Shown in pieces: positions 19,140 through 37,326 of a stretch of 64,000 nucleotides of DNA (within the stretch, counting starts at the first letter, position 1; each line of letters opens with the position of its first letter). A program made the position numbers and the translations under genes. A model generated the notes under the pieces. It was not told where the DNA came from. It made no database searches and worked only from the letters and a program-made list of their open reading frames with translations. The stretch comes from Polytrichum commune (lineage: Eukaryota; Streptophyta; Polytrichopsida; Polytrichales; Polytrichaceae). The stretch spans positions 21,636,001 to 21,700,000 of the forward strand of contig OX485809.1 of the NCBI GenBank assembly GCA_950295325.1. The letters run 5' to 3'.

Positions 19140-19236
19140 GCGCCACGTCACAAGCCCATTTTGCAACAAGTGGCGCCTTCACAGCGCCACGCATGCAGGG
19201 CCGCCACGTGTATCACCATTCTGGCCTATATATATA
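19140..19236 (+). promoter_or_regulatory. LEA gene promoter: ABRE/G-box, RY motif and TATA box
   Basis: Within 100 bp: GCGCCACGTCAC (core CACGTC 19144-19149), a GCATGCAGG block containing the RY core CATGCA (19192-19197), the palindromic G-box CACGTG in GCCGCCACGTGTA (19205-19210), and a TATA box TATATATATA (19227-19236). CACGTG/ABRE elements bind bZIP factors of the abscisic-acid pathway, and RY motifs bind B3 factors of the ABI3/VP1 type. Both are classic in LEA promoters. Transcription probably starts near 19260, leaving a ~200-base leader before the ATG at 19469. Confidence 0.75.
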
Positions 19237-19468: not shown

Positions 19469-21024
19469 ATGCCGAACTACGAAAGCGCCAGTGACTTAGC
19501 AGCCCACAAGACCAAGGTAAGGTTCTCTTTATACATGTTGCCAATGGTACAGGTCAATGTGATTCTCCACGGCCACTTCAATTTGTTATCTGCAGGTTCC
19601 AATTTTCTTTGCAGTAAGTATACTCCATGAGTCACGTGGTTAATATGTTTAATGCATGGGGTACTCCTGATCCTGAGAACAACATCCGTTTCAGGTTAAG
19701 TTGCCTACTCATGAACTGGGTGTTGTAAATTATCTTTTATTGGAATTAGCTTTGAAGCATTGATGGTTTGATCGATCTTGGGGTGCTAATCAAACTCTCC
19801 ATATCCTTTGGCTGTTTTTGCAGGATGCTGCTGGGGTTACCCAAGACAAGGCTCATGACATGGCAGGTGCAGCCAAGGTGAGGGTTTCACATCATTTTTC
19901 TGCAGGTTCTGATTTTCTCCATGGGTGGGGTTGAATGGGTTGTCTGGAAATCATGAGCACATCATCACAAGGTTAATAATGTGGAGAACCGTTTGCGTTA
20001 ATAGTGGTCGCATTCATCTACTCATGTGGTTTAAATTTAGTTAAAAATTTGATTTCAGGTGACAGTATACAAGAGACCAGACCACAATCCTGGTCGCAGA
20101 TGCTTGGTTTAATCTTGCCTGCACGGTGCTCATTGACTGTTTTTCCCTTGTTTTTATGGTTCGTGCAGAATGCTGGTGGAGCTACCCAAGACAAGGCTCA
20201 TGACATGGCAGGTGCAGCCAAGGTGAGGTTCTATGTTTATCGCCACATCAGTTCCTGCAGGTTCTAGTTTTCTCCATAAGTGGGGTTAATAGGTTGTCCT
20301 GATCATGAGCACAAGTACTACACACAATTATGTCGAGAATGATCTGCATAAATATAGGTTGCAATTGTATCATGATCTACTCATGTGGCTACTTCTAAAA
20401 GCTTATTGGTAACTTGATCTTGCGGTGCTACAGATTGACTGTTTTTCCCTTGTTTTTATGGTTCGTGCAGAATGCTGGTGGTGCTACCCAAGACAAGGCT
20501 CATAACATGGCAGGTGCAGCCAAGGTGAGGTTCTATGTTTATCGCCACATCAGTTCCTGCAGGTTCTAGTTTTCTCCATAAGTGGGGTTAATGGGTTGTC
20601 CTGATCATGAGCACAAGTACTACACACGGTTATGTTGAGAATGATCTGCATAAATATTAGTTTCAATTGTATCATGATCTACTCATGTGGTTACTTCTAA
20701 AAGCTTATTGGTAACTTGATCTTGCGGTGCTACAGATCGACTGTTTTTCCCTTGTTATTATGGTTTGTGCAGAATGCTGGTGGTGCTACCCAAGACAAGG
20801 CTCATGAGATGGCAGGTGCTGCACAGGGCAAGACCAAGGCAGCGAGCGACTTGGCAGGGGAGAAGTGGGAGAGTACAAAGCAAGCCTCCTCCAACGCTGC
20901 ACAAGCTGCCTCCAACAAGGCCGCGGAGGCCAAGGACAGTGTGAGCGGCCTGTTGCACCAAACTGGGGATGCAATGAGCGGTGCCTACCAGAGTGTCAAG
21001 AATGCTCTCTCTTCTAATAACTAG
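19469..21024 (+). CDS. group 3 LEA-like protein with tandemly repeated exons
   Basis: Five exons: 19469-19516, 19824-19877, 20169-20222, 20471-20524 and 20773-21024. All introns are phase 0 with AAG|GT donors and GCAG acceptors. The product is 153 residues. Exons 2, 3 and 4 are each exactly 54 nt and encode near-identical 18-mers: D-A-A-G-V-T-Q-D-K-A-H-D-M-A-G-A-A-K, then NAGGATQDKAHDMAGAAK, then the same with H-N-M. Exon 5 opens with a fourth copy (H-E-M, then A-A-Q) and continues with Ala/Lys/Ser-rich sequence (S-D-L-A-G-E-K-W-E-S-T-K-Q) to S-S-N-N-stop. The protein is hydrophilic, with no Cys, signal peptide or membrane segment. Family members are disordered in water, form amphipathic helices on drying and protect membranes and proteins. 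The promoter suggests ABA or drought induction. Skipping any repeat exon would keep the frame. Confidence 0.88.
20142..20824 (+). repeat. 302-bp exon-plus-intron tandem repeat in the LEA gene
   Basis: Exon starts at 20169, 20471 and 20773 are exactly 302 bases apart. Introns 20223-20470 and 20525-20772 are both 248 bases and differ at only about a dozen sites by eye. Intron 19878-20168 is a more diverged relative with the same GGTTCTAGTTTTCTCC-like and GACTGTTTTTCCCTTG blocks. The duplicated unit is therefore one exon with its flanking intron. Confidence 0.9.
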
Positions 21025-24170: not shown

Positions 24171-27100
24171 CTAATATATGTAATACATGGGGTTGGGCAA
24201 CTTGAAGGTGCGGCTGCCAACCGACTCCACTGTGATGTCACTCCATTGGTCACCCATTGAACTCCATATGCGGAAGCCCTGGGCTTCTAACTCTTTCCGA
24301 CGTGCTGTCTTATATTCAACAGCAGTTAAGCCTGTCTCCTCTGGTGACCTGGTTTCATCAGATGACAAATGAGAAATCGATCTCAACTATTATTAACAGA
24401 AGCAAAGCAGTGCTGATGAGATTGGAATTTCAGAAGGACAGTGTAAGGTTTACACATTCTTGATGTGCTCAATCCAAATGTTTGAACACTTGTTGTTTTA
24501 TTGTTGAAGCGAACAAATGCTCTCTACAACATCAAGGTATATCTACTTGCCAATAATAGGTTAACGGATCACCTGTTATAAAAGCTTCCCTCCAATCTCA
24601 GTGGTCTACAGATAATGATTCACTCTCAAAAAGAATCAATAAATGGATCAATGCAATAACTTCATGAGGATTTCACCTTCTCCAGAAAAAAGTCAAGGGC
24701 ATAACTTGCCTTGAGTTAGAGCTCTACAATTGGTGCTTCAAAAACATGACTCAGATTGTATTGTATGGATACATGTACGTGCTCAATATATTGTAGAGTG
24801 CCACATGGCAAGTCTTTTGACACCAATTAAATCCCAAATAGAAATTACAGTTTGGCATAGAAAAAAAATGAACCAGGAAGCACCTTATGGTAATACATGA
24901 CAAGCCTCATAATGCACTTGCAAGCATCTTGGCTAGCAAGATACATAGGAGGAGCAGGACAACAGAAATTCCTTGATAGACAAGCACAGGGCAGCTGTCT
25001 ACTAGGCTGTTTTGGAATATTTCTTTTCTTGATCAATGTATTACCTCTCTACAGGTCAAAGCATATTGAAGGATTTCTTTATTTATGAGTCTTTTGATTG
25101 CACTCATCCAGAAACAGAGGCACTCACCTTAAAATAAGGGCTGACCAGCCTGCATAACCAGCAGAAAGCAGATTTTGTGTAGTTACATTGCGCTGCTCCT
25201 CTGGTCTACCAGTGATGAAAGCAAAGCTCCAATTTTGAGCCTGGAGGTCAGTATAGAGGGAAAGCATTGGTTCTAATGCAGGAGCACTTGCATTGTTCAC
25301 CCATATATTCCATGTTTTCTCAATCCAAGGATCCGTCCTGGCAAAATTACAAAATTGACGTTAATAAGGATCTCTCTATCCTAAGAATGTGGAGACATTC
25401 CTCAAGAAACAAGCATATGCAATGAAAAAAACTGACCAACATTTGCACCAGTTGTAGATTGAATAGGTGAAAGAAACGCTTGGCAAAAGTTGTGAGCTTA
25501 CCCATAGTTGTGAGCTTGATAGTAAGGAATGTTTGACAAAACTGTCTCATCAATATCTAGCACAATAAGGTCGCGGTGATCTGGCCCTGCAGACAATGTG
25601 CTGAAATAGTCTCTGGCAGCATCAATAGCTACCTCATAATCAGTATCATACTGGCCTAATTCAACATACTCTGCCACATAACTTTTGCACTCTTTCGGGA
25701 GGAGCCAGCCCTGCAGATTATTGAGTTCTGCATTGAAAGCAAAGCTTCTGCATGTGTTTGGCACAGGAGGCTGCTGACATTTGCCCAACATAACAGCTAG
25801 GGTTACCACAAGGGTGAAAAGTATGATCCCGATGGTGGCCATGACAGCCATCAAGGCAGTGACTGCAATAGATGAGAGGTAAATACCAAGATCATCCACT
25901 TGAATATATGCATTTCCAAAACCATATCTGCTTCCATATACTGCACGCCCCAAAAGAAAGGAAACATGCTTAGTTTGACAACATGGAACCACCATAAATC
26001 TTGTTCATATTATGTATGCAAAGCAAACAAAACGACCATCAACTGGCATTGGTAAAGCCAGATCCTTAGGGCTGGAAGCAGAGCACGGGACATATACCAG
26101 TACTAGCTGAGGATATCCTCACTACCTTCTATGAAGGTCAACAAAATCTCTCACATGAAAAGCTAAAGAAAAGTCAGAAAACTCAGTCCATTGAGCACCA
26201 TGAGTTCTATATTTCCTTCCATGTTCAAAAATATCGCGAAGACAAGTCCGGCCAGATTCTTGTAACTATCATCCTAAACTAAGAGATAAGTTAGGAATGC
26301 AAAGCATATAAAATGACCACCAAGTAACATTGGTATTGCACATCCTTAGGGCAAGAGGCAGAACAGAGGGACATATACCGCTACAGATAGCTGAGGAAAT
26401 CCTCAACCCCTTCTATGAAGGTCAACATGTTTCACATGAATAGCTAAAGAAACATGACAGAAGTCTAAAAACTTGGTCCTTTGAGAACAATGAGTTCTAT
26501 ATTCCTTCCATCTTGAAATATATCACAACAGAAGTCCACCCAGACTATTGTTACAATCACTCTTGATAAAAAGATATGTTATGAATGCAAAGCATAAAAA
26601 ATGACCACTAAGTGACATTGGTAAGCCAAATCGTTGGGGCTAGAGGCAGAGGGACATACACCCCTACTGATAGGTGAGGACATGGTCAATCCCTTCTACA
26701 AAGGCCAACATGTTTCACATGAATAGCTGAAGGAAAATTTGAAATCTCGACCCTCTGAGCACCATGACTTCTATGTATCCATGTTCAAACATATCACAGG
26801 AAAAGTCCGGCCAGATACATGTAATAATTTTTCTTATTATCAGATAAGTTAGGCACCCAAGCCATACAAAACGACCCCCAAATGACATTGGTAAGCCACA
26901 TCCTTAGGGCTAGGAGCAGAGCAGAGGGATATACCACTAAGATAGCTTCTGGGAACGTCAACAGTATCTTTCAGATGAATAGCTGAAGGATTTTCTGAAA
27001 ACTCACTCTTTTGAGCACCATAAGTTCTATATTTCCTTCCATGTTCAAATATATCACAAGAGAAGTCTGGCCAGATTATTTTACCAATCATTCTCGATTA

Positions 27101-27883
27101 AGAGATGAGTTAGGCATGCAAAGCATACAATATGGCCACTAAGTGACATTGGTAGGCCACATCCTTAGGGCTAGGAGCAGAGCAGAGCAGAGGGACATAT
27201 GGCTCAATCCCTTCTACGAATATCAACATCTTTCACATGAATAGCTGAAGGAAATTCTGAAAACTCGGTCCTGTGTGCACCATGAGTTCTAAATTTCCGT
27301 CCGTGTTGCAATATACCACAAGACAAGTCCGGCCAGATATTTTCAACGGTCATTCTTGATTAAGAGATGATTTAAGCAGCAAAGCATTCAAAATGACCAA
27401 GTGACATTGGATAAACCACATCCTTAGGGCTAGGAGCAGAGCAGAGGGACATATACCACTACTGATAGATTCTATGAACGTCAACAACATCTTTCACATG
27501 AATAAGCTTCTGGAAACTCGGTCCTTCGAGCATCATGAGATCTATAATATTGAAATCTATCACAAGAGAAGTCCGCCCAGATCATTCGTCCAACGACCAT
27601 TCTTGATTAAGAGATAAGCTAGGCATGCAAAGCATAAAAAATGACCAAGTGACGTTGGTAAAGGTGCATCTTTAGAGCTAGAGGCAGAGCAGAGGGACAT
27701 AGGTATACCAGAGTCACGCTGGCTGCTGAGGAGAGATTCCCTTGACGCATTTCTGCTACCGAGAAGGGAATTACTGGGTGACCTCCGGCCAGACTCAATT
27801 GTGTCGTCATCTGGTCCAAAACTGAAGGATCTGGGTAAGTCGGAGCCTGAGGCTGAGGCAGGATTATCACCCGTTTCCACCAT
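24171..27883 (-). CDS. HAD superfamily (subfamily IIIB) acid phosphatase, membrane-anchored
   Basis: Four exons: 27883-27709, 25940-25502, 25337-25128 and 24348-24171. Junctions: TCTG|GTATAC to GTGCAG|TATATGG; CTATGG|GTAAGC to TTGCCAG|GACGG; TTAAG|GTGAGT to ACCAG|GTCACC. The frame is kept throughout, giving 333 residues. Residues 1-60 are Ser-rich and polar. One membrane helix spans about 79-110, with no cleavable signal, so it is a likely type II anchor. HAD motifs are complete: D187-I-D-E-T (nucleophile and acid/base Asp), T247-G-R-P after F-A-F-I, K288 in Y-K-T-A-R-R-K, and G-D308-Q-W-S-D312 for Mg2+. This is the plant acid phosphatase / vegetative storage protein family (class B type). 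It should hydrolyse phosphate monoesters; substrate and compartment are unknown. Intron 1 (~1.8 kb) is mostly a tandem array. All key residues are present, so it is probably active. Confidence 0.88.
25990..27708 (-). repeat. tandem array of ~250-280 bp units filling intron 1 of the phosphatase gene
   Basis: The anchor GGGACATATACC or a close variant occurs at 26087, 26368, 26651, 26926, 27192, 27446 and 27694. The spacings are 281, 283, 275, 266, 254 and 248. Each unit also carries TCCTTAGGGCTAGRAGCAGA, a CACATGAATAGCTGAAG block, CATGAGTTCTATATTTCC and AAGTCCGGCCAGAT. The last anchor abuts the true 5' splice site, so each unit appears to include a copy of donor-adjacent intron sequence. Units diverge by point changes and small indels. 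Confidence 0.85.
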
Positions 27884-36240: not shown

Positions 36241-36590
36241 TGTATGATGTGCTCTCTAATCAGAAAGAAAGATTGATCTGAACTACACCAATCTATCCGG
36301 TGGAGTCTAGAAGTGCGAAGCAACAAAAACCAAAAGTGAAATGGAGCATAATCCTGCAGTCCAATCCAGTTCGGCGTGAAATTTCAGCAAAATTGTCCAG
36401 CTGAACGATGGCCTGATTTCGGGGAGATGGAATGGATTGAATGGCAAAGATTAGCTGGTGGCCATCAACTATTCGGGCATCTGCACACAGGAGGGCCGGT
36501 GGTACTGCAGACCATTGCTGAGATACTGGGAGGTTCAGATGACCATCTTCTCCTTCAAAATGCTCAAGAGACCTAACCTCGAAAACTACC
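36241..36590 (-). pseudogene. decayed copy of the 3' end of the adjacent small gene
   Basis: Aligns with 36600-36930, the last exon part and 3' flank of the gene at 36808-37326, in the same orientation. The shared sequence includes CACCAATCTATCCGGTGGAG, CAGTTCGGCGTGAAATTTC and GATGACCATCTTCTCCTT. On the minus strand the codon after K-M-V-I is TGA here but CGA in the intact gene, a nonsense change typical of CpG decay. The frame beyond still reads like the gene's C-terminus up to a TAG. Only the C-terminal part was copied, so it is a fragment with no start. Confidence 0.75.
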
Positions 36591-36807
36591 TCTTTTAAAG
36601 TACGATGGTGCTCTCCAGTCAGAAAGAAAGGAAGGTCGATACGAACTACACCAATCTATCCGGTGGAGTTTAGAAATGAATCAACCAAAAAGAAAAGTTA
36701 ACAATGAAGTATAATCCTGCAGCCTCAATCCAGTTCGGCGTGAAATTTCGGCAGAATTGTCCAGGCCAGAAAGGGATTTGATCTAAGAATGGATTGAATG
36801 GCAAAGA

Positions 36808-37326
36808 TCAGCTGGTAGCCATCAAGCACTTGGGCATCTGCACACAAGAGGGCCGGAGGTACTGCACTCCGTTGCTGAGATAGTGGGAGGTTCGGATGAC
36901 CATCTTCTCCTTGAAGATGCGTGCTCGGAGGGGCAGCCGGTAGTTGCAGGCAACGACAGCCCAAGCCGCAGCCTTCAATCGCAGTAGCGACTTCTTCACC
37001 TTCTCGGGGGTTTTGGGCTCCGTTGTCGATGGCCTTGTGAAGGTGTAGGATCGCAGGTACTCCTGCCGGCTGCCGTAGTCCCGGGGTGAGATCGTGAAGT
37101 CGTCGAAATCTTCTGTTCCCGAGTACTCGTTGCGGAAGGGGGAGAACGGTATGTCAATCAACCTGAACCCCTCCACCTTGTCCACGTCCGACCTACGTCT
37201 GCTCGTGTTGCCGAAGCTGGTTGCGAAGGGCGAGTGTTTCCCCGGGTAATTGTTGTATGGGCTCATCATCTTGCAATGCTCGCCTCTCAATTCCTTCAAC
37301 GCAAATGAACTTGAGTGCCGACACAA
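36808..37326 (-). CDS. small unrecognised plant protein, single exon, 172 aa
   Basis: An uninterrupted frame from ATG at 37326 to the stop at 36808-36810. A second in-frame methionine pair (M-M-S-P-Y-N-N) follows at residues 20-21. The protein is basic. It has a polar N-terminal part, an acidic patch (S-G-T-E-D-F-D-D-F), then R-Q-E-Y-L-R-S-Y-T-F and a basic, helix-prone segment (K-V-K-K-S-L-L-R-L-K-A-A-A-W-A-V-V-A). The L-R-S-Y-x-F motif followed by a basic helix occurs in several small plant-specific protein groups of unknown role; I cannot name this one. G+C is higher than in its surroundings, which fits real coding sequence. There is no signal peptide. The duplicated 3' end next door supports a functional parent. 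Confidence 0.6.
   Translation of the reverse strand: MCRHSSSFALKELRGEHCKMMSPYNNYPGKHSPFATSFGNTSRRRSDVDKVEGFRLIDIPFSPFRNEYSGTEDFDDFTISPRDYGSRQEYLRSYTFTRPSTTEPKTPEKVKKSLLRLKAAAWAVVACNYRLPLRARIFKEKMVIRTSHYLSNGVQYLRPSCVQMPKCLMATS

Follow-up and report, generated by a model that had tools for sequence, protein, structure and literature searches.

Probable stepwise tandem duplication of a phase-0 intron and an 18-residue repeat module in a predicted LEA-like gene of Polytrichum commune

A predicted late embryogenesis abundant (LEA)-like gene of Polytrichum commune carries one 18-residue repeat on each of three short internal exons and again at the start of its last exon, which raises the question of how a repeat protein comes to be divided among such uniform exons, and whether their number serves a function. 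The gene lies at 19469-21024 on the plus strand of a stretch of 64,000 nucleotides (assembly GCA_950295325.1, contig OX485809.1, positions 21,636,001 to 21,700,000), hereafter the window. The explanation that we favor, at a probability of about 0.82, is that the repeats multiplied in steps, as a phase-0 intron was duplicated in tandem together with the first 54 nt of the exon that follows it. This reading draws on sequence comparison, namely the homology of the duplicated units, the graded divergence of the introns, the closer resemblance of the repeat exons to the exon that comes after exon 1 in paralogues A-D, and the predicted structures of the paralogues. An earlier note on this DNA had proposed growth by copying an exon along with its intron, and this proposal is well supported by the intron homology, the identity of the units and the presence of six paralogues that have no repeat exons.

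The predicted model comprises five exons (48, 54, 54, 54, and 252 nt in order; Table 1) and a product of 153 aa. The earlier note had given the interval as 19824-21024; the gene reaches further than this, as exon 1 (19469-19516) lies outside it. Exons 2, 3, and 4 (E2, E3, E4) are each 54 nt long, in phase 0 and flanked by GT...AG borders, and are thus predicted to be symmetric duplicate exons that keep the reading frame. That every repeat exon is in phase 0 and encodes 18 residues, as had also been claimed, holds for these three, whilst the fourth copy takes up the opening 54 nt of exon 5, inside the 252-nt last exon. Read-through from the upstream exon meets stop codons inside all four introns, and neither the 302-bp period of the repeat (302 mod 3 = 2) nor the lengths of three of the four introns are multiples of three. 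Because of the period and the intron stops, the repeated coding pieces could belong to one protein only if they were spliced. Over a block of 52 codons in the last exon, comparison with paralogues A-D gave non-synonymous divergence (dN) of 0.20-0.21 and synonymous divergence (dS) of 0.68-2.90; among the repeat exons themselves the ratio dN/dS has just 12.3 silent sites behind it, a sample too small to use.

Table 1. Predicted gene, tandem units, upstream region and modelled paralogues (I1-I4, introns 1-4; positions in the window, except for the paralogues)
Feature	Position	Strand	Length and remarks
Putative promoter	19142..19235	+	pattern match: CACGTC at 19144, G-box CACGTG at 19205, TATATA run from 19227
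Exon 1	19469..19516	+	48 nt, 16 aa
Intron 1 (I1)	19517..19823	+	307 nt; weak homologue of introns 3 and 4, borderline with intron 2
Exon 2 (E2), repeat copy 1	19824..19877	+	18 aa, phase 0
Intron 2 (I2)	19878..20168	+	291 nt; final 37 nt the same as final 37 nt of intron 3
Exon 3 (E3), repeat copy 2	20169..20222	+	18 aa, phase 0
Intron 3 (I3)	20223..20470	+	248 nt; first 211 nt intron-4-like (8 differences), final 37 nt as in intron 2
Exon 4 (E4), repeat copy 3	20471..20524	+	18 aa, phase 0
Intron 4 (I4)	20525..20772	+	248 nt
Exon 5, last	20773..21024	+	252 nt, 83 aa and stop; opens with repeat copy 4
Tandem unit U1	20132..20433	+	302 bp
Tandem unit U2	20434..20735	+	302 bp; 10/302 differences from U1
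Partial third unit U3	20736..20826	+	8/91 differences from U1, 8/91 from U2
Paralogues A, B, C	C7:37.13 Mb (L016, G000:C7:37131000-37140999)		modelled
Paralogue D	C7:30.42 Mb (L017)		modelled
Paralogues F, G	C1:15.99 Mb (L018, G000:C1:15986500-15995500)		modelled; G on + strand

The starts of exons 3, 4, and 5 (20169, 20471, and 20773) are spaced by exactly 302 bp, as had been noted before, and the distance from the start of exon 2 to that of exon 3 is 345 bp, not 302. Tandem Repeats Finder (TRF) reported an array at 20132-20819 with a period of 302, 2.3 copies, 96% matches and a score of 1278. Adjacent copies are homologous in the exon as well as in the flanking intron, as in a tandem exon-intron duplication. 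The word "exact", which had been used for this duplication, overstates it: the identity is about 96-97%, with 11/248 differences between the introns and 10/302 between the units; exons 3 and 4 differ at 2 of 54 nt. Tandem repeats are where assemblers fail, so that a false duplication in the assembly would be one way to obtain such an array; however, false copies would be expected to be near identical, and the differences between the two units, together with those of the partial third copy (8/91), make an assembly artefact a very improbable source of the repeat.

We compared the introns by local alignment, with 10 nt trimmed on the donor side and 20 nt on the acceptor side, against 300 dinucleotide-preserving shuffles. 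With 248 nt each, introns 3 and 4 match at 237/248 positions, in line with the earlier description of two introns of equal length and near identity; the divergence estimate that had been called for is thus 11/248, near-identical without being exact. Their local score was 400 against a shuffle maximum of 40, and so the likeness is not due to chance. The scores of I2 with I4 (136) and with I3 (128) were reached by none of the 300 shuffles, whilst I1 scored 58 with I4 and 48 with I3 (shuffle maxima 44 and 43). Introns 2-4 are therefore read as clear homologues and intron 1 as a weak one, and the gradation suggests old (I1), middle (I2), and young (I3, I4) copies of a single intron. Near-identical introns of the same phase within one gene could also be mobile introns (introner-like elements) that were inserted separately, with no duplication of exon and intron. 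This graded series across introns 1-4 argues against it, as does the inclusion of exon sequence in the repeat unit. Genome searches, in which very common words were skipped, revealed no dispersed copies: introns 1 and 2 matched this locus only, and 20132-20830 matched this locus and one place in paralogue B that corresponds to the start of exon 5. Dispersal of the intron into other genes was thus not found, a result that the skipping of common words keeps from being absolute, and we regard separate insertion as scarcely credible.

A protein search of the plant's own genome returned at least 35 matches at E ≤ 10 among the best candidates, to which scoring was limited; five of these are the exons of the window gene. 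Six paralogues (A, B, C, D, F, and G) were modelled, apart from pseudogene-like pieces at loci L016 and L017 and weaker matches elsewhere. All six begin with a 102-nt (34-aa) exon 1, which a phase-0 intron of 278-785 nt separates from a long repeat-bearing exon; F and G have an additional intron near the 3' end. A free-standing 54-nt repeat exon was present in 0/6, so that the window gene has relatives without the extra exons.

In paralogues A-D, the four covered by this comparison, the opening 54 nt of the second exon agree with E2-E4 at 34-41/54 positions. Another conceivable source of the repeat exons, the 18-residue tail of the ancestral exon 1, was rejected, as E2-E4 matched the last 54 nt of exon 1 of the same paralogues at 20-28/54 positions. 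Exon 1 of the window gene is exactly 54 nt, or one module, shorter than the 102-nt exon 1 of all six modelled paralogues, and its best alignment with exon 1 of A-D (38-41/48 identities) places a 54-nt gap at nt 42-45. Given this gap and the matches of E2-E4, the window gene can be described as having an exon 1 that lacks one 18-residue module and three modules in the form of exons.

From these comparisons we infer the splicing, and the order and mechanism of the exchanges, as follows. The ancestor, judged by the six paralogues, would have had a 34-aa exon 1, a phase-0 intron and a large repeat-rich exon. The window lineage would then have lost 54 nt of exon 1, and the first 54 nt of the next exon would have been joined to the donor site of a copied intron, giving the first free-standing 18-residue exon; subsequent duplications would have added further exon-intron units. 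The youngest visible step would be the 302-bp copy that gave 20132-20433 and 20434-20735. Because the introns are in phase 0, the frame would have been kept at each step, and an alanine-rich repeat protein merely lengthened.

Intron 3 may record how that last copy arose. Its final 37 nt are identical to those of I2 (37/37), I4 departs from both at 3 sites, and TGCTACAG, immediately upstream of these 37 nt, is common to I3 and I4 and absent from I2. Most simply, intron 3 would be a hybrid, with a left part that resembles intron 4 and a right part that resembles intron 2, the product expected when misaligned introns undergo unequal exchange; the youngest step would then be best explained by such an exchange, or by an equivalent switch of template, between an intron of the intron-4 type and one of the intron-2 type at about 20433-20436. 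Local gene conversion may also account for this pattern, and in a wider form conversion would keep the whole array similar, making the apparently recent duplication an older one that was homogenized. The shared 37 bases would fit such a history, as would a run of 88 nt free of differences that passes from within the exon into the intron in U1 and U2, and the confinement of all differences between exons 2 and 3 to their first 14 nt. Intron 2, however, has for the most part not been homogenized with introns 3 and 4, so that any conversion would have been local, and we consider an old, homogenized array unlikely.

Several observations weigh against the stepwise duplication history set out above. 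The gene model is itself a prediction from sequence, with indirect support, and exon 1 (14 codons) does not display strong constraint (dN 0.18-0.26, dS 0.23-0.57). The standing of U1 and U2 as sister units is statistically marginal (p 0.04-0.10): the contrast of 10/302 (U1/U2) with 8/91 (U2/U3) gave p = 0.042 by Fisher's exact test, in which the pairs are not independent because U2 is common to both, and over the same 91-base stretch the contrast of 2/91 with 8/91 gave p = 0.10. The I1/I2 score of 38 was borderline, being equalled by 3/300 shuffles, and without trimming the same score fell under the maximum (45) of 100 simple shuffles. When each of I1-I4 was compared with the introns of the six paralogues, 24 pairs in all, nothing clear emerged (best z 2.7, reached by 5/300 shuffles; next 2.6, by 9/300), and for this reason the proposed descent of the window introns from the paralogue intron rests on position and phase. 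The case for a hybrid intron 3 is built on one short indel difference and three substitutions, and a similar pattern would result if intron 4 had acquired three mutations since the duplication. Lastly, a Pfam scan of the window protein gave no match to LEA_4.

The LEA label of the earlier note is sustained indirectly, through three paralogues (A, F, and G) that were scanned and that matched LEA_4 (PF02987) with E values of 2.7e-4, 1.1e-8, and 1.2e-6. Their scores (21.2, 35.2, and 28.7 bits) all fall under the curated cut-off of 51.1, so that neither the window protein nor these three are LEA_4 members above it; the window protein is homologous to proteins with such sub-cut-off matches. We accordingly call it LEA-like (group 3 or LEA_4-like), a designation indirectly supported by paralogy, and do not file it as an LEA_4 member; it would presumably have a protective role in drying. 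A search of the plant's own genome with the LEA_4 family gave no match and is uninformative, as the control gave none either. A weak match of the window protein to Tektin (E 0.022, 14 bits, cut-off 34.3) was taken as chance. Eighteen residues make five ideal alpha-helical turns. Selection for an amphipathic helix was considered for the 18-residue module and not supported, as the observed moment (at 100 degrees) was reached by 1465/5000 column-shuffled arrays.

Does the number of repeats then serve a function? The earlier note had seen in the gene a modular dosage system: the number of repeats would differ among individuals through unequal exchange, or among transcripts through exon skipping, and would so tune a desiccation protein. 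The internal exons are 54 nt long and in phase 0, so that their gain, loss or skipping would be neutral for the frame; U1 and U2, at about 97% identity, should be alike enough for further misalignment; and the upstream G-box and CACGTC, which we take to be motifs similar to an abscisic acid (ABA)-responsive element, fit control by ABA or drought. The claim of in-frame addition or skipping is thus arithmetically correct, but the frame-neutrality is an automatic result of copying one phase-0 intron, and no regulatory function is required to explain it. The splice borders of the internal exons are alike and give no sequence hint of preferential skipping, and a divergence of 3.3-4.4% argues against a very recent gain, or full homogenization, of U1 and U2. 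At 3.3% over the unit, the youngest visible duplication likewise speaks against very recent growth; divergence (K) of 0.034-0.046 would correspond to 1.7-4.6 million years at illustrative rates of 5e-9 and 1e-8 per site and year, which is not a dated result. We therefore think a dosage system quite unlikely. The specific form in which the number of 302-bp units differs among individuals today, and drying or ABA shifts the skipping of exons 2-4 to yield LEA-like proteins of 99, 117, 135 or 153 aa, appears more doubtful still.

Some further observations concern the paralogues. In G a longer repeat region lies within a single 462-nt exon, so that sister genes can hold more repeats without introns; the same protein has a weak Pfam match to CsbD (E 3.7e-4, 20.8 bits, under the cut-off of 40). 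The last exons of B and C are alike (dS 0.11), whereas their introns have no detectable homology (score 31, reached by 25/300 shuffles). In B and D, which lie about 6.7 Mb from each other, the introns are homologous (score 166 against a shuffle maximum of 41) but the exon dS is 0.85. Together these patterns suggest gene conversion between B and C that was limited to the exon. Decayed-looking fragments of the family lie near intact-looking copies, at about 6431-6596 in L016 and about 1828-2124 in L017.

Other tandem repeats were found elsewhere in the window. At 26010-27701 two overlapping TRF rows describe an array whose units recur about every 262 bp (71-75% matches), and many stop codons in a six-frame reading of 26010-27000 indicate that it is probably non-coding. 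TRF also reported a repeat at 36262-36920 (period 357 bp, 1.8 copies, 82% matches), and a perfect 51-bp repeat (2.2 copies) at 1123-1232, where one forward frame is open throughout.

The gene offers a compact case in which the steps of repeat-protein lengthening can still be read in intron sequence, with I1 the oldest-looking, I2 in the middle, and I3 and I4 young, and the paralogues that hold their repeats inside one exon provide a comparison set. It is also a testable locus for variation of repeat number in a likely stress protein; if variation and skipping are absent, it becomes an ordinary example of exon duplication. Our verdict is that the stepwise exon duplication here is real and well readable, and of an evolutionary kind already known. 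Among the titles and opening lines of abstracts returned by searches of an open-access library, we recognized no LEA gene that grows by exon-intron duplication, which does not imply that none has been published.

Four known systems invite comparison. Group 3 LEA proteins (LEA_4, PF02987) resemble the window protein in being alanine-rich with repeats rich in Gly and Lys, and the three scanned paralogues match that family; the repeat of the window protein, however, has 18 residues, and the classic one 11. Introner-like elements likewise produce near-identical introns, but the window unit carries an exon and dispersed copies of it were not found. Collagen exons of 54 bp are in phase 0, and exons of 54 bp are common to collagen and the window gene. 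Collagen forms an extracellular triple helix, with 57 exons coding for its domain, whereas the window gene has three internal exons and its alanine-rich product is unrelated; that both use modules of 18 residues we regard as coincidence, and homology is not claimed. Growth by 54-bp exons has been proposed for the fibrillar collagen genes (PMC4450265). Tandem exon duplication in general is exemplified by the alternative oxidase of the oyster, in which a duplicated exon is reported to be alternatively spliced (PMC5589949); the duplicated exons adjoin there as they do in the window gene, whose copies, in contrast, would be included together and so lengthen the repeat.
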